A stretch of DNA of 64,000 nucleotides from Spirochaeta africana DSM 8902 (lineage in GTDB: Bacteria > Spirochaetota > Spirochaetia > DSM-27196 > DSM-8902). Position numbers and translations under genes: made by a program. The notes under the pieces are model-generated. The model was not told the origin of the DNA. It saw nothing but the letters and a program-made list of their open reading frames with translations, and did not search any database. Numbering within the stretch: position 1 is the stretch's first letter; every line of letters begins with the position of its first letter. Below, piece after piece: positions 3 to 32,318 of the stretch. The stretch covers positions 2,685,501 through 2,749,500 of the forward strand of contig NC_017098.1 of NCBI RefSeq assembly GCF_000242595.2, read 5' to 3'.

Positions 3-890
3 GTGCTTACCCTGCTGGCCGGATCCGGCAGCCGCTGGGTCAAGTCGATCCAGGCGGCCGAGGCCGGGGGAACCCCGACCGGCTTCGATCTGCGCAAGCC
101 GCGGGGCCTGTACCCGGTACCCAACCTGCTGCCGCCGGAGGTCTGCCCGGCAGATACCCTGCCGATTGCGGCATATAGCCTGGCAGCGGTCAAGGACCTG
201 GGGTCCCACATTATTATGACCAGCGGATTCGAGGCAGAGATCGAGCAGGAGATACTGCAGCCCCTGGGGTTTGCGCCTGCAAGCTATCGGTTCCAGCAGC
301 AGGAGCTGTTTGCCGGCAAGCCGCTGGGACATGGGGCGGCTGCCCTCCAGGCAATGCCGTTCTGGCAGGAGTATGAGTATGTGATCTGTAATTTTGGCGG
401 GGATGCCAACAACCGCCAGACCATCGAGACCGCCCTGCTGACACTTGCCGGGCTGGATACCCTCGGCGAGGATGCCGGGCTGCTGCTGCCGGCGGCACTG
501 GTAGCCAATCCGGCCTATACCATCGAAACCGATTCCGGGGGGCGGCCGATCGCGTTCCATCATGCCAAACTGACCGGCAGTGAAACCACCGCCGATCGCG
601 GCTGGAGCAACGTCGGGCTGCGTCTGTATCGCACCCGGGATCTGGCCGAGGCGCTGCGCACCCTGCACGATGCCCACTGGCACAGCGACAGCGGGTATCA
701 GGTGCCGGGCAATGCGGGGAACGAGCTGGCGCTGGATAACGCCGATGCCTGGCTGGCAGAACGACGCCGGGCCCGACTGCTGACGATTGCCCGGCCAGAG
801 GAGATCACCCCGGCCAAGACACTGGAGGCAATCCCCGGATTCCTGCAGGCAGTGGCCTCGCTGCCGGGTATGCGCCGATACTCAGAATGA
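3..890 (+). CDS. Nucleotidyltransferase (NTP-transferase fold), 5' end outside window
   Basis: The frame is open to the left edge, so the true start is probably upstream. The first in-window codon that could start is GTG at 3, but it would leave only three residues before the nucleotide-binding loop LLAGSGSRW, shorter than usual for this fold. That loop matches the L-A-x-G-x-G-S/T-R signature of sugar-1-phosphate nucleotidyltransferases, which transfer an NMP to a sugar phosphate. FGGDANNRQT around residues 131-140 may take the place of the metal-binding aspartate loop. The substrate cannot be told from the sequence. The gene converges on the DUF456 gene and their 3' ends overlap by 9 bp. Family-level assignment only. 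Confidence 0.55.
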   Translation: MLTLLAGSGSRWVKSIQAAEAGGTPTGFDLRKPRGLYPVPNLLPPEVCPADTLPIAAYSLAAVKDLGSHIIMTSGFEAEIEQEILQPLGFAPASYRFQQQELFAGKPLGHGAAALQAMPFWQEYEYVICNFGGDANNRQTIETALLTLAGLDTLGEDAGLLLPAALVANPAYTIETDSGGRPIAFHHAKLTGSETTADRGWSNVGLRLYRTRDLAEALRTLHDAHWHSDSGYQVPGNAGNELALDNADAWLAERRRARLLTIARPEEITPAKTLEAIPGFLQAVASLPGMRRYSE

Positions 891-26932: not shown

Positions 26933-27970
26933 CCGGATCATGCTGCCAGAATCGATCGCAACACCATCGCCGCCGAGGCCGGGGTCTCTACCGCCACCGT
27001 ATCGCGGGTGTTCAACAACCCGGACAGTGTTTCACACGAGCGCCGGCAGCGGGTCCTGGCAGCAGCTCACCGGCTGGGCTATGCCCCAAACAAGTTTGCC
27101 TCTGCACTGGCCCGTAAAACCACCGGCCGCCTGCTGTGGCTCGATGGCCGCAAGCTTTCGGCCCACGACCCGGATAATGCCGCCTTTTACGCCTCGCTGT
27201 ACACCGATGCCCTGGAGAGCGCTCTGGAGGTGATCGCCGCCACCACCTTCCATCTCGAGATCGGAGCGCCGCATGCCGGCAGCATCTCACCGGAGGAATA
27301 CGACGGTATACTGGTGTTTGATATTGATAATATCCAGCAGGCAGTCAAGCTTGCCGGCAGCGGGGTGCCGCTGGTTTGCGGGCATCACGTGGCCCATTTC
27401 CCCCGGGGTGAATGCTTTGCGGTGGACAACACCGCCGGAGGCCGATTGCTGGCGGAGCACCTTGCCGGGCTTGGCCACCGAAGGATCGCCTGGGTAACCG
27501 GCAAGACCGCCGAGATCAGCAGTCACCGCGACCGGCAGAACGGGATTGCCGGGATCTTTCCGGACAGCCAGCTGCAGATAATCGACGGGCAGCTGGGCCC
27601 GGCCGGCGGCGCAGCCGCAGCCCGACAGTTGCTGCCGGAGATACTTGCCGGGAAGATCACCGCGATCATTGCGGTGAATGATCTTACCGCCTTCGGCCTG
27701 GTGCAGGAGCTGCGGCACCGGGGCGTCGCTATTCCGGCACAGGTTTCCGTAGCGGCCTGCGACAACCTGCCCATCCTCCAGCTGCTGCCCATGCGGCTCA
27801 CCACCCTGGATCTGCAGCTGCCGGTGCTGTACCGTGCGGCGGCAGAGCGGCTGCTGCAGATACCGGCACAGCCGGGGCTGGTGCAGGACTCCCTGCGCCT
27901 GTTTCCACCGGTACTGATTCCCGGTGATTCCACTGCCGTACCGGCGAAGTGCCCCCGGCCGGCTACCTGA
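26924..27970 (+). CDS. LacI-family transcriptional regulator of the gal locus
   Basis: A 348-residue repressor with an N-terminal helix-turn-helix (IAAEAGVSTATVSRVFNNPDSVS), the hinge region LGYAPNKFASALAR, and a periplasmic-binding-protein-type sensor domain. The ligand is probably galactose or a galactoside, judged from the divergent galKE operon and nearby GH42 gene. ATG 26924 has no ribosome site and lies nine bases after the predicted -10 box, suggesting a leaderless or nearly leaderless mRNA. The stop codon lies inside the first unit of a 16-bp tandem repeat. Confidence 0.9.
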   Translation: MRQPDHAARIDRNTIAAEAGVSTATVSRVFNNPDSVSHERRQRVLAAAHRLGYAPNKFASALARKTTGRLLWLDGRKLSAHDPDNAAFYASLYTDALESALEVIAATTFHLEIGAPHAGSISPEEYDGILVFDIDNIQQAVKLAGSGVPLVCGHHVAHFPRGECFAVDNTAGGRLLAEHLAGLGHRRIAWVTGKTAEISSHRDRQNGIAGIFPDSQLQIIDGQLGPAGGAAAARQLLPEILAGKITAIIAVNDLTAFGLVQELRHRGVAIPAQVSVAACDNLPILQLLPMRLTTLDLQLPVLYRAAAERLLQIPAQPGLVQDSLRLFPPVLIPGDSTAVPAKCPRPAT

Positions 27971-28056
27971 ACCGCCGGCTACCTGAACCGCCGGCTACCT
28001 GAACCGCCGGCTACCTGAACCGCCGGCTACCTGAACCGGCTGCTACCTGAACCAGG
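27961..28056. repeat. 16-bp tandem repeat (minisatellite) between convergent genes
   Basis: Four perfect copies of GGCTACCTGAACCGCC (27961-28024) are followed by two diverged copies (28025-28056). The first copy includes the TGA stop of the LacI-type regulator, and the array ends 2 bp before the leuA stop codon. There are no spacers, so this is not CRISPR. The unit length is not a multiple of three, and it lies outside coding sequence apart from the first 10 bp. Confidence 0.93.
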
Positions 28057-28058
28057 CG

Positions 28059-29723
28059 CTACGCGAGCCGGGAGCGGTTGTAAGCACTTACCACCCCCTT
28101 GAGTCCGGCAATAGAGATGTCGGTATCTACACCGACGCCCCAGAAGCGACCCCCGTCCCGGGCCTGGATCTGGACATAGGCCGCAGCCTCGGTACCGGCA
28201 CCAGAGCCAACGGCCTGCTCCTTGAAGTCGATGATGGAGAAACCGTTCCAGCCACGCTCGGACATGGCATGCACAAAGGCATCGATCGGGCCGTTCCCGC
28301 GCCCGGTAATCTCGATAATCTGTCCGTCATAGGCCACTTTCACGGTACAGGTAATGGTGTGATCCCCCATCTCGTCGGTAAGTGAGCGCAGTCGGATCAG
28401 CTCCAGCGGTACGGTAAGCTCGAGATAGCTTTGTTTGAAGATGTCAAATATTTCCTGCTTGGTGGCCTCGCGGCCCAGGCGATCAGTCGCCTGATTCACC
28501 ATGCGGCCGAACTCCGGATGCATGGTCTTGGGCAGATCAAACCCGAACTCACGTGACATTACATACGCCACCCCGCCCTTGCCGCTCTGACTGTTGATGC
28601 GAATAATGGCCTCGTAGGTGCGTCCGATATCCCGTGGATCGATCAGCAGATACGGCACCTCCCAGGCTGCTGTCGGGTCTTGTATGTCGGCCCGGCGATC
28701 CATCCCCTTCTTGATAGCATCCTGATGCGAACCGGAAAAGGCCGTAAAAACAAGATCACCACCATAGGGATGACGCGGATGCACCTCCATGCCGGTCAGA
28801 TCCTCGTACTGCGCACGCACGGAGGGGATATCGGAAAAATCGAGGCCGGGATCAATCCCCTGACTGAACATATTCAACGCCACGGTTACAATATCCAGGT
28901 TCCCGGTGCGCTCACCATTGCCGAAAAGGGTTCCCTCTACTCGCTGTGCACCGGCCATCAATGCCAGCTCGGTGGCAGCTACGCCGGTTCCCCGATCGTT
29001 GTGGGTGTGCACGCTCAGGATAATTGCCTCCCGATTGTTCAGGTTGCGCGACATCCACTCGATCTGGTCGGCATGCACATTGGGGGTGGCCCACTCGACC
29101 GTAGCCGGCAGGTTAAAGATAACCGGATTCTGCACCGTCGGCTGCCATACCTCGGCAACCGCATCGCAGACCTCTTTGGCAAAATCCAGCTCGGTGTCCG
29201 AGAAGCTCTCGGGGGAGTACTGCAGCCGGACAGTGGTTTCCGGTACGGTAGCGATCTGATCCCGCACTATCTGTGCCCCCCGGACCGCAATCCCCTTGAT
29301 CTCCTCTCGTGACATGTCAAAGGTAATCTTGCGTTGCAGGGTGCTGGTGGAGTTGTACAGATGCAGAATTACATTGCGCGCCCCACGGAAGCTTTCAAAG
29401 GTTCGCTTGATCAAATGCTCACGGGCCTGGGTCAGGACCTGGATCGAGACATCATCGGGGATCAGCTGCCGATCGATCAGGGTACGCACAAACTCGAACT
29501 CGATCTCGCTGGCAGCAGGAAAACCGACCTCTATCTCCTTGAATCCCAGATCCACCAACAGCTGGAAGTAGCGCAGCTTCTGGGCAACCCCCATCGGGTT
29601 TGCCAGGGCCTGATTACCGTCGCGCAGATCCACACTGCACCAGATAGGGGGTGCGATAATCTCGTTGTCCGGCCAGCGGCGATCAGGCAGATCGACCTTC
29701 GGGAAACGGGTATATTTTGGCAT
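28059..29723 (-). CDS. leuA: 2-isopropylmalate synthase
   Basis: The 554-residue enzyme condenses acetyl-CoA with 2-ketoisovalerate in the first step of leucine synthesis. The HMGL-like barrel has DLRDGNQAL near residue 37, the metal-binding HTHNDRGTG, and GERTGN. The C-terminal leucine-binding regulatory domain contains GRGNGPIDAFVHAM. The size fits the long LeuA type. ATG 29723 was chosen because GGAGGAGG lies just upstream; the frame stays open to 29750. Expression is probably controlled by the leucine attenuator at 29751-29911 as well as by allosteric leucine inhibition. Confidence 0.95.
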   Translation of the reverse strand: MPKYTRFPKVDLPDRRWPDNEIIAPPIWCSVDLRDGNQALANPMGVAQKLRYFQLLVDLGFKEIEVGFPAASEIEFEFVRTLIDRQLIPDDVSIQVLTQAREHLIKRTFESFRGARNVILHLYNSTSTLQRKITFDMSREEIKGIAVRGAQIVRDQIATVPETTVRLQYSPESFSDTELDFAKEVCDAVAEVWQPTVQNPVIFNLPATVEWATPNVHADQIEWMSRNLNNREAIILSVHTHNDRGTGVAATELALMAGAQRVEGTLFGNGERTGNLDIVTVALNMFSQGIDPGLDFSDIPSVRAQYEDLTGMEVHPRHPYGGDLVFTAFSGSHQDAIKKGMDRRADIQDPTAAWEVPYLLIDPRDIGRTYEAIIRINSQSGKGGVAYVMSREFGFDLPKTMHPEFGRMVNQATDRLGREATKQEIFDIFKQSYLELTVPLELIRLRSLTDEMGDHTITCTVKVAYDGQIIEITGRGNGPIDAFVHAMSERGWNGFSIIDFKEQAVGSGAGTEAAAYVQIQARDGGRFWGVGVDTDISIAGLKGVVSAYNRSRLA

Positions 29724-29750
29724 ACGGTCCTCCTCCATACCATGATCCAT

Positions 29751-29785
29751 AAAAAAAGCCCGTCACCGATCACTCGGTGACGGGC
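29751..29785 (-). terminator. Attenuator terminator upstream of leuA
   Basis: On the minus strand a perfect 12-bp stem (GCCCGTCACCGA/TCGGTGACGGGC, loop GTGA) is followed by seven T, ending 27 bp before the leuA ATG. It sits between the leader peptide and leuA and is therefore an attenuator rather than the end of a gene. Upstream segments around 29786-29820 (CGGGT with ACCCG, TTCC with GGAA) can pair to form competing structures. Confidence 0.9.
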
Positions 29786-29803
29786 CGTCGGGTCCCTGTT
29801 CCA

Positions 29804-29911
29804 TTACCTGGAAACCCGCTGTCCGCACATAGAGCGATCGGCGCCAGCCGAGTCGGCTAGCCCCAGCAGCAGAGCTTCGAGTCCAAATGTGCGATCACTG
29901 CAAGATTCCAT
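29804..29911 (-). CDS. leuL: Leucine leader peptide of the leuA attenuator
   Basis: A 35-codon frame starting at ATG 29911 and ending TAA at 29804. Codons 11-18 read Leu-Glu-Ala-Leu-Leu-Leu-Gly-Leu, five leucines in eight codons (CTC, three CTG, CTA). A ribosome stalled here for lack of charged tRNA-Leu would favour an alternative fold over the terminator at 29751-29785, allowing leuA transcription. A promoter lies directly upstream and the ATG appears to be at the transcript 5' end. The peptide itself probably has no function beyond control. Confidence 0.82.
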   Translation of the reverse strand: MESCSDRTFGLEALLLGLADSAGADRSMCGQRVSR

Positions 29912-29917
29912 GCCAAA

Positions 29918-29946
29918 ACCGTACGCAATCACCCGGTTTTTGTCAA
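29918..29946 (-). promoter_or_regulatory. Promoter of the leuL-leuA transcript
   Basis: A perfect TTGACA (29941-29946, minus strand) is followed after 17 bp by TACGGT (29918-29923). Six bases separate the -10 box from the leader-peptide ATG, with no ribosome site, so the leader is probably translated from a leaderless mRNA. Confidence 0.68.
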
Positions 29947-29970: not shown

Positions 29971-30702
29971 TCAACCGACAACAGAGAGTTGTACCCGCCC
30001 GGCCTCTACGGCCTCCTGGAGTGAGGAGAAATCGGGGCGTGTCATTTCGGCTACGAAACTGCGCTTGCCCATATCTGCCAGATAATGGGCATCGGAGTCG
30101 CAGACCAGTGGCAGCCCGCGGGTCCCGATCGGCGGCGGCAGGCGTACAATTTCCAGTGCACTGAAATCCCCCGGGGGCAAGGCACCCAACTGGCTGGTGA
30201 CACTGGTGGTCGGACGATCAATATGCGCCGGTATACACATACCGCCGGCAATCCGGATGCGCCCAGCCAGTTCGGTCAGCCCGATCTGCATGGCGCCGCT
30301 GGTCAGGTGCAGCTCGATCTCGCCAATGATCATATCATCCTTGTCCACGATAACCTGATCACCCCAGCGCTCGGGGCGATTGGGGATGGACCGGTACAAG
30401 GGGAACAGCTCGGCATCGAAGGCCGACGCGGCCTGCTCAGTCGCAAACAGGGCCAGTACATGCAGCTCCTCGATGGTGGTAATTTCCATCCCGAAAACCG
30501 GAATAATCCCGAGTTCGCGGCACCAGTAGCCAAAGGCCGGACAGTTCGCGGTGGTGTTATGATCGGTCAGACCCAGGATATCTATCCCCAGCTCCCGGGC
30601 CCGCTCCGCCATAGCGCGCGGCGACATCTCCAGGGCAGCACACGGGCTGACACATGAGTGATTATGCAGGTCGGCAACCAGCCGCAGCCGAGAGGACTTC
30701 AT
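29971..30702 (-). CDS. PHP-domain phosphoesterase
   Basis: A 243-residue PHP protein with the four metal-binding motifs: ADLHNHSCVSP, GLTDHNTTANC, CIPAHIDRP and CDSDAHY. Such stand-alone PHP proteins are phosphoesterases or nucleases; the substrate is unknown. It is the last gene of a four-gene minus-strand unit (DRTGG, CBS-ATPase, DRTGG-like, PHP) and overlaps the upstream gene by ATGA. Similar PHP genes lie beside [FeFe]-hydrogenase operons in Firmicutes (general knowledge), so a role in hydrogenase-linked regulation is plausible. Confidence 0.85.
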   Translation of the reverse strand: MKSSRLRLVADLHNHSCVSPCAALEMSPRAMAERARELGIDILGLTDHNTTANCPAFGYWCRELGIIPVFGMEITTIEELHVLALFATEQAASAFDAELFPLYRSIPNRPERWGDQVIVDKDDMIIGEIELHLTSGAMQIGLTELAGRIRIAGGMCIPAHIDRPTTSVTSQLGALPPGDFSALEIVRLPPPIGTRGLPLVCDSDAHYLADMGKRSFVAEMTRPDFSSLQEAVEAGRVQLSVVG

Positions 30703-31028
30703 AGCCGCGCGCCTGCCTCACAACTCATCCGGAACTGGTTGCGTTCGGTACGGAACAGGGCGATCCCCTCTTCGCGAGCGGCCGCAATCATCTCGTCCGG
30801 AACCGGACGGCTGCTGCAGATCACAATGGCCAGAACCCCGGCCAGGGTTGCCACCGCGACGGTGTTGGTATGAGCCTGGATGGTAATCAGCACCGCATCC
30901 TCGGGGCAGTTGCCCATAACATCGCTCAGCAGATCGGAGGTGAATCCGGCGACCAGCTGCTCCTCGGGATAGGGTCGGTACAAAGCCTCGCAACCGAGTT
31001 CCTGCTCCAGCAGTGTTGTGGTCAGCAT
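30699..31028 (-). CDS. DRTGG-like small regulatory-domain protein
   Basis: A 109-residue alpha/beta protein with the DRTGG-type core (SDLLSDVMGNCPEDAVLITIQAH... VAVATLAGVLAIVICSSR). DRTGG domains occur in phosphotransacetylases and CBS proteins and are thought to bind nucleotides or act as regulatory modules. It is the third gene of the unit, 2 bp after the CBS-ATPase stop and overlapping the PHP start by 4 bp. It resembles the first gene of the unit in size and fold, pointing to an old duplication. Confidence 0.7.
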   Translation of the reverse strand: MLTTTLLEQELGCEALYRPYPEEQLVAGFTSDLLSDVMGNCPEDAVLITIQAHTNTVAVATLAGVLAIVICSSRPVPDEMIAAAREEGIALFRTERNQFRMSCEAGARL

Positions 31029-31030
31029 CG

Positions 31031-31966
31031 TTACTCCTCCTGTGCCTGCTGCTCGGGTATATATATGACAACCGACACCGTGGTACCGGTGGATTTCTCC
31101 GAGGTAATGGTGAACTCATCAGAGACACGACGGGCATTCGGCAGCCCCATACCAGCACCAAACCCGAGGCTGCGGATCCAGTCATTGGCTGTAGAGAATC
31201 CCTCCTGCAAGGCCGCATCGACATCGTCGATACCCGGGCCGCGATCAATTGCCTGGATGGCAACCCGGTCGTCGTGAAAGCTGCACAGCATCCGACCGCC
31301 GTCGCTGTGATTCACCTGATTCATCTCCAGTTCGTAGGCCGCAACCGAGATCCTGCGTACCGTCTTGCGATCGATCTGTTTGGACTTGAGCAGCTTCTTG
31401 ATCTCGGTAGAAACCCTGCCGGCATTCTGATAGTCATACTTGCGTACAATATACTCCCGGTGAATGGTGTCCGGAGGCAGGATCGGGTTCTGCGACAGCA
31501 CCTGTTTCTCCAGCTCCTCAAGCTCCTTGTTCATCTCGACAATCAATGAATTGGTAATGTCCCGATTGGTGATTATGCCCACCAGCTCCTTCTGCTGGCT
31601 GACCACCGGGAACCGGCCAAAGGAATACTTGTCAAAGTAGGAGATCCCGAAGGACAGCGGCATATCATCCTCCAGGACAATCAGACGCCTGGTCATATGG
31701 GCATCCGCCCGCTCATGCATGGCACCGTTCTCCAATGCGTGAATAATATCATCCATACTGACAATACCCGCCAGTCGCCGCCCGTCAACAACCGGCACCC
31801 CGGTGATCGAGCTATCCTTCATAATCGCCTGGATTTCGCGCAGGCTGGTCTCGGGGGCGACCGTAAGTACGTTACGTGTCATTGCGTCGCGGATCTTCAG
31901 ACGATAGATCAGCTCCAGGACCACCGAGGGGGCGGTAAGGGTATTGATCGGTATGTGACTATGCAT
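31031..31966 (-). CDS. CBS-pair protein fused to an anti-sigma-type ATPase domain
   Basis: A 311-residue fusion. Residues about 20-160 are two CBS motifs (MTRNVLTVAPETSLREIQ, VPVVDGRRLAGIVSMDDII; then FPVVSQQKELVGIITNRDI), which usually sense adenosyl nucleotides. Residues about 195-305 are an RsbW/SpoIIAB-type HATPase (VAAYELEMNQVNHSDGG, DRGPGI, GFGAGMGLPNARRVSDEF). This would couple cell energy state to a partner switch or protein kinase (inference). It overlaps the upstream DRTGG gene by 8 bp. Confidence 0.85.
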   Translation of the reverse strand: MHSHIPINTLTAPSVVLELIYRLKIRDAMTRNVLTVAPETSLREIQAIMKDSSITGVPVVDGRRLAGIVSMDDIIHALENGAMHERADAHMTRRLIVLEDDMPLSFGISYFDKYSFGRFPVVSQQKELVGIITNRDITNSLIVEMNKELEELEKQVLSQNPILPPDTIHREYIVRKYDYQNAGRVSTEIKKLLKSKQIDRKTVRRISVAAYELEMNQVNHSDGGRMLCSFHDDRVAIQAIDRGPGIDDVDAALQEGFSTANDWIRSLGFGAGMGLPNARRVSDEFTITSEKSTGTTVSVVIYIPEQQAQEE

Positions 31967-32318
31967 GATCTTCCATCAGCTTGCCGAGCGCCACCGAGAA
32001 ATCGAATCCCGACATGCGGGACCCAAGCACCGGGATATCAAGATCCTCGGCCAGGGTAACCAGTGCCGGCTGCGGGGTCTTGCCGTTTACCAGTACTATC
32101 CCGACAGCCCCGACTATGTCGGCGGTTCGTGCAACCTGATCGCTGGTCAGGGATGTTACCAACAGAAAATCCTCGTGTTCTACCGTCAGCACGTCGCTCA
32201 TAAGGTCGCAGACCAGAACCTGCACAAAGGACTGACCGAGCTGTTCGTCATCTCCACAGAAGATCTGCAGCTCGAGTGGTTCACGTATGGCATCAAGGGA
32301 AAGTTGGGTATGTTTCAT
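31959..32318 (-). CDS. DRTGG-domain protein
   Basis: A 119-residue DRTGG-type protein (CDLMSDVLTVEHEDFLLVTSLTSDQVARTADIVGAVGIVLVNGK; C-terminal IPVLGSRMSGFDFSVALGKL). It is the first gene of the sensory unit next to the hydrogenase locus. ATG 32318 lacks a ribosome site and lies seven bases after a TATACT box, so its mRNA may be leaderless. Confidence 0.78.
   Translation of the reverse strand: MKHTQLSLDAIREPLELQIFCGDDEQLGQSFVQVLVCDLMSDVLTVEHEDFLLVTSLTSDQVARTADIVGAVGIVLVNGKTPQPALVTLAEDLDIPVLGSRMSGFDFSVALGKLMEDHA

Follow-up and report, generated by a model that had tools for sequence, protein, structure and literature searches.

A probable ribosome-mediated leucine attenuator with a predicted leaderless leader peptide upstream of leuA in Spirochaeta africana and other Spirochaetia

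We analysed a stretch of 64 kb from Spirochaeta africana DSM 8902 (the window), in which leuA and all the elements of the putative attenuator that precedes it lie on the minus strand. The leuA gene encodes a 2-isopropylmalate synthase of 554 amino acids, which was assigned to the leuA_yeast/type-2 subfamily by profile matches with scores over both cut-offs (829 bits for NF002991, cut-off 455; 758 bits for TIGR00970, cut-off 697). Its start is most likely ATG 29723, located behind the Shine-Dalgarno sequence GGAGGAGG, rather than an in-frame ATG at 29750. Upstream of the putative attenuator, a minus-strand cluster (29971-32318) carries genes for a PHP-domain protein, a small protein of 109 amino acids, a CBS plus histidine-kinase-type ATPase-like protein and a small protein of 119 amino acids; within this cluster, the profile search covered the PHP protein only. 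On the other side, GCCGGCTACCTGAACC is repeated six times in tandem at positions 27958-28053, in the interval from the gene of a LacI-type regulator to the 3′ end of leuA. The elements are as follows, in the order in which they would be transcribed.

29971-30702, minus strand: PHP-domain gene, upstream of the putative attenuator, ending 25 nt before the −35 box
29941..29946, minus strand: −35 box TTGACA, perfect consensus, in the same place in relatives
29918..29923, minus strand: −10 box TACGGT, separated from the −35 box by a 17-nt spacer, recurring in relatives
29912..29917, minus strand: six-base discriminator TTTGGC between the −10 box and the ATG; from this spacing, +1 is predicted at the A of ATG 29911
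29804..29911, minus strand: leader peptide ORF, 35 codons plus TAA, MESCSDRTFGLEALLLGLADSAGADRSMCGQRVSR, with equivalent Leu-rich ORFs 5′ of leuA in relatives
29887..29910, minus strand: region 1, which holds the start codon and is predicted from fold energy only (z −4.2) to pair with region 2 in untranslated RNA
29858..29881, minus strand: leucine control codons, 5 Leu in 8 codons (CTC, CTG three times, CTA)
29809..29830, minus strand: region 2, just before the stop codon, predicted to pair with region 1 or to help sequester the terminator 5′ arm as antiterminator
29774..29786, minus strand: region 3, the terminator 5′ arm, GGCCCGTCACCGA
29757..29769, minus strand: region 4, the terminator 3′ arm, TCGGTGACGGGCT
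29751..29757, minus strand: the seven consecutive T of the intrinsic terminator
29729..29736, minus strand: Shine-Dalgarno sequence of leuA, GGAGGAGG
28059..29723, minus strand: leuA

The preliminary description of this DNA had reported a promoter with a perfect TTGACA and a gap of six bases between the −10 box and the start codon, and both were borne out by the arrangement TTGACA-17-TACGGT-6-ATG. Its leader peptide of 35 codons with five Leu in eight codons was also recovered: the ORF runs from ATG 29911 to a TAA stop at 29806-29804 (nucleotides 106-108 of the leader), and the Leu codons listed above are codons 11, 14, 15, 16 and 18. An intrinsic terminator is placed between the leader ORF and leuA, with a local fold of −27.2 kcal/mol (z −4.2). 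The terminator hairpin and its seven T stood as previously described, and the stem, given earlier as 12 bp, was counted here as 13 pairs with a 4-nt loop (29786-29757). The joint promoter and start pattern occurred once in the window against 0.03 occurrences expected, and the promoter, the Leu cluster and the terminator recur at leuA in other spirochaete families, which together argue that this layout did not arise by chance.

That recurrence was followed in 395 Spirochaetia genomes, 126 of which had a member of the LeuA subfamily (E 1e-100 or better), and up to 420 bp 5′ of leuA were taken from 122 spirochaete loci. The relatives in this set had LeuA proteins of at most 68% identity, with S. 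africana as the sole member of its own family. Most of the 122 loci have, 5′ of leuA, a closed ORF that contains a Leu cluster: at least five Leu in eight codons were found in 70 of them (57%), compared to 4.1% of 1,220 dinucleotide shuffles, and loci with at least five Leu in 10 codons spanned 18 families. The leader peptides of the relatives (for example MNRAASSINAILLGLLLALPGVSAEKGSERRRRG, MNNKLLLLSLSSLFYCKR and MKGTAFLLNLLLTLLLSLVKEVYGTELRSR) are alike in little beyond Leu. Among loci with a whole leuA gene, the codon CTA made up 23% of Leu codons in the leaders versus 1% in leuA, an enrichment of a rare codon that would be expected if the leaders rely on a poorly supplied tRNA. The upstream neighbour lay on the opposite strand in 19 of 49 loci, and there the hairpin is thus not simply the terminator of the neighbouring gene. 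A lack of conservation in close relatives had been named beforehand as one refuting outcome, and both the Leu codons and the hairpin were found conserved upstream of leuA across families; judged from the sequences, the same layout is repeated at leuA in most of the examined spirochaete families that have this gene.

Short Leu-rich ORFs were also observed upstream of leuA genes of the same subfamily in Verrucomicrobiota (L094, L099, L100, L103, L066, L071, L087, L109 and others). Several of them end in ...ALLLGLRLGL*, followed by an apparent GCGAC/GTCGC hairpin and no obvious intrinsic terminator; they are possibly a separate Leu element.

In order to locate leader starts relative to promoters, the best −35/−10 pair 5′ of the Leu cluster was chosen blind to the start codon, and strong promoters were obtained at 55 loci. 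An ATG, GTG or TTG in frame with the Leu codons stood 6-9 nt past the −10 box in 43 of these loci, while the other two frames gave 0 and 1. This count is conservative, because in eight further loci (L004, L005, L012, L127, L139, L144, L148 and L176) the start was seen by eye to lie 6-8 nt past the −10 box; automatic distances of 0-2, 21, 41, 46 or 66 nt, or 'none', were in part wrong promoter picks. Bacterial transcription typically begins about 7 nt past the −10 box, so that a spacing of 6-9 nt would put the AUG at the 5′ end of the RNA or within about 3 nt of it. No Shine-Dalgarno sequence was found before the leader ATG 29911, and the leader starts of the relatives were close to shuffled sequence in their pairing with the anti-Shine-Dalgarno sequence (mean energies of −2.4 kcal/mol for leader starts, −8.5 for leuA starts and −1.7 for shuffles). 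The leader mRNA is hence probably leaderless, with +1 predicted at the A of the ATG in S. africana and within 3 nt of the start codon in most relatives. Exceptions are four loci of one family (f36: L111, L112, L113 and L116), whose Leu leaders start 27-33 nt past the −10 box behind an apparent short 5′ UTR; in another family (f17) this distance was 11-20 nt. A leaderless leader is therefore common but, given f36, not universal. The earlier proposal that the peptide is read from a leaderless mRNA gained support from the conserved spacing, as such a leader predicts.

That proposal had also called leaderless reading unusual, which does not hold for the S. africana genome: the pattern TTGACA-16..18-TANNNT-5..9-ATG was found 30 times, mostly with spacing 6, against 4 times for a reversed control. 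A second correction is that leaderless attenuator peptides have already been described elsewhere. About 24 of the 30 starts open ORFs of at least 90 codons, and leaderless initiation looks common in this genome. By look, the genes behind this pattern include ilvA-, metG-, hom-, gatC- and pgsA-like ones. For spirochaete genomes that have leaderless genes at all, an earlier in silico survey estimated their average share at 3.9% (PMC3160421). Three short ORFs behind leaderless promoters (L219, L222 and L223) were considered as further attenuators and rejected; none of them precedes an amino-acid operon, L222 runs antisense within the frame of a longer gene, and they look like chance matches.

We also analysed whether the leader could switch between alternative folds. 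In the untranslated leader, regions 1 and 2 are predicted to pair around the Leu codons (z −4.2); in S. africana, both the 1:2 and the 2:3 pairings rest on energy and not on covariation. Pairing of the leader with the terminator arm was first scored as a simple duplex, which gave p values of 0.05 or less in only 10 of 37 loci, S. africana not being among them (p 0.6), and was replaced by a three-state measure of accessibility. This measure represents the ribosome by simply masking part of the RNA, and asks what it costs in energy to free the terminator 5′ arm in a transcript reaching just short of the 3′ arm. In S. africana the modelled cost was 12.2 kcal/mol with a ribosome stalled at the middle Leu codon, 3.3 with a ribosome at the stop codon and 7.7 with no ribosome. 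The corresponding means over 46 loci were 10.2, 3.9 and 5.6 kcal/mol, with 6.5 kcal/mol for shuffled leaders, and the stalled cost exceeded the stop cost in 42 of the 46 loci. Since the stop state is lower in part trivially (the RNA is shorter), the fair control is a shuffle of the stalled state; against dinucleotide shuffles, 16 of 17 family means were positive (Wilcoxon p 1.5e-5), with a simple terminator finder and with phylogenetic dependence handled by family means only. At the level of the group, the model thus indicates an antiterminator available during a stall at the Leu codons and blocked at the stop codon. Taken alone, S. africana has the order of states 12.2 > 7.7 > 3.3 kcal/mol but a z of 1.08 against shuffles (p 0.12), so that its own modelled antiterminator is suggestive only.

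A parallel arrangement was found at trpE of the same genome, outside the window (L239, minus strand, about 2905.2-2905.4 kb). It consists of TTGACT-18-TAAGTT-7-ATG, the peptide MKLNQITTAIHFSGSWWPSV and the terminator AAGCCGCGCTTCCCAGCGCGGCTTTTTTT, with the promoter read by eye, as the automatic pick fell within the ORF. Among 29 trpE loci of relatives (L242-L270), at least 10 have a leader with WW or WWW that starts 6-10 nt past the −10 box. These sequences suggest a leaderless Trp attenuator at trpE in S. africana and in at least 10 relatives, and we counted this parallel in favour of attenuation at leuA. No leader with a run of codons was seen at ilvB, leuC and hisD of S. africana.

Collectively, the parts, their conservation and their energetic logic point to ribosome-mediated transcription attenuation of leuA that senses charged leucyl-tRNA through a leader peptide on a leaderless RNA, a reading that we hold with a probability of about 0.87 and in which we infer the 5′ end of the RNA, the stalling, the read-through and the response to leucine. 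RNA polymerase would start at or beside the leader ATG, as the promoter spacing suggests, and a ribosome would initiate on the 5′-terminal AUG without a Shine-Dalgarno sequence. When leucine is scarce, this ribosome would stall at the Leu codons (codons 11-18) and part region 1 from region 2, so that the freed RNA 3′ of the Leu codons could pair over the terminator 5′ arm and polymerase would read into leuA. When leucine is ample, the ribosome would reach the stop codon and cover region 2, and the 13-bp terminator with its seven U would form. If the leader is not translated, the 1:2 domain would keep region 2 away, and basal termination would be expected.

The same attenuation could operate on a longer RNA, either by read-in from the PHP-domain gene or from another promoter that adds a 5′ UTR. 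Two observations fit such a longer RNA: the PHP-domain gene is read in the same direction and stops 25 nt short of the −35 box, no terminator having been seen in the gap, and the four f36 loci have 27-33 nt between −10 box and start. Against it stand the missing Shine-Dalgarno sequence 5′ of the ATG, leader starts that in general pair with the anti-Shine-Dalgarno sequence little better than shuffles, an in-frame spacing of 6-9 nt kept across families and the 19 of 49 loci with the upstream neighbour on the other strand. We consider a longer RNA unlikely.

Much less probable still, and strongly disfavoured, is that the hairpin is the ordinary terminator of the upstream operon, followed by an unrelated leuA promoter, with a fortuitous Leu-rich ORF. 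S. africana does have a same-strand gene upstream, and five Leu in eight codons is by itself not very rare (about 4% of shuffled upstream regions). However, families that differ in the neighbouring genes have the Leu ORF, its start position and the terminator in common, the leaders are enriched in rare CTA codons, and the alternative-pairing logic was better than shuffles in 16 of 17 families. Least probable, and close to negligible, is a riboswitch that binds a metabolite or tRNA (a T-box or other) or a leader that binds a protein. The leader region is strongly folded (z −4.2) and has a terminator at its end, as such an element might; yet conservation is seen in a reading frame and its Leu codons and not in a fixed RNA fold. 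Neither a T-box nor another Rfam riboregulator matched at gathering level at this leuA leader or at 13 further loci, in agreement with the earlier statement that no T-box lies upstream of leuA, and at E values up to 10 the S. africana leader had only chance-level matches.

With leaderless attenuation preferred at leuA, we think it somewhat more probable than the contrary that this is the standard and anciently fixed control of leuA and trpE in Spirochaetia, in which the sensors would be ribosomes on 5′-terminal AUGs and not ones guided by a Shine-Dalgarno sequence, with few lineages (f36, perhaps f17) having a longer 5′ UTR. If this is true, the latter lineages would form a natural series on why attenuator leaders are leaderless. 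Attenuation needs a ribosome to load fast behind a polymerase that is only some 100-160 nt away, and in these leaders it would do so at a bare 5′ AUG; the conserved spacing makes them well suited to a clean comparison of leaderless translation. The leaders also provide testable annotations of leader peptides at leuA and trpE, short ORFs that are easily missed in genomes. Most descriptions of ribosome-mediated attenuation come from Proteobacteria and Actinobacteria, and a literature search found no report of attenuation in spirochaetes, most subscription papers being outside its reach; a comparative survey of 2010 by Lopatovskaya et al., cited in PMC4833913, could bear on this point. Leaderless attenuators are already known from Corynebacterium and Sinorhizobium, and it is the class-wide leaderless form in Spirochaetia that seems undescribed.

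In the enteric leuL-leuABCD system, a run of Leu codons with rare CTA, alternative hairpins and an intrinsic terminator precede leuA, and translation of leuL begins behind a 5′ UTR and a Shine-Dalgarno sequence. The spirochaete leader shares the Leu run, the rare CTA, the alternative hairpins (here as predicted) and the terminator before leuA, whereas it has no Shine-Dalgarno sequence, an unrelated peptide and no match to an Rfam covariance model. Actinobacterial leuA leaders also have a Leu-rich leader peptide in common with it, such as that of Corynebacterium glutamicum with four Leu codons (PMC4046766). In the actinobacterial LEU element 5′ of leuA, a conserved pseudoknot pairs the Leu codons with the leuA Shine-Dalgarno sequence (PMC1262725); in S. 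africana, a conventional intrinsic terminator separates the leader from leuA, which argues against a pseudoknot of this type. According to PMC11857589 (citing Morbach 2000), C. glutamicum ilvL-ilvBNC has a translation-dependent attenuator whose leader begins one nucleotide from +1 and has no ribosome-binding site. The S. africana leader is predicted to resemble it in its leaderless start; ilvL differs in operon, amino acids (Val/Ile/Leu), phylum and leader sequence. In Sinorhizobium meliloti, the attenuator RNA of trpL (rnTrpL) begins with the leader AUG, and Ribo-seq showed it to be translated (PMC10117765, PMC7298713). There the amino acid is Trp and not Leu, and trpL functions in trans as well, through its peptide and its RNA; the closer match to S. 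meliloti trpL is found in the spirochaete trpE leaders rather than in the leuA leader.
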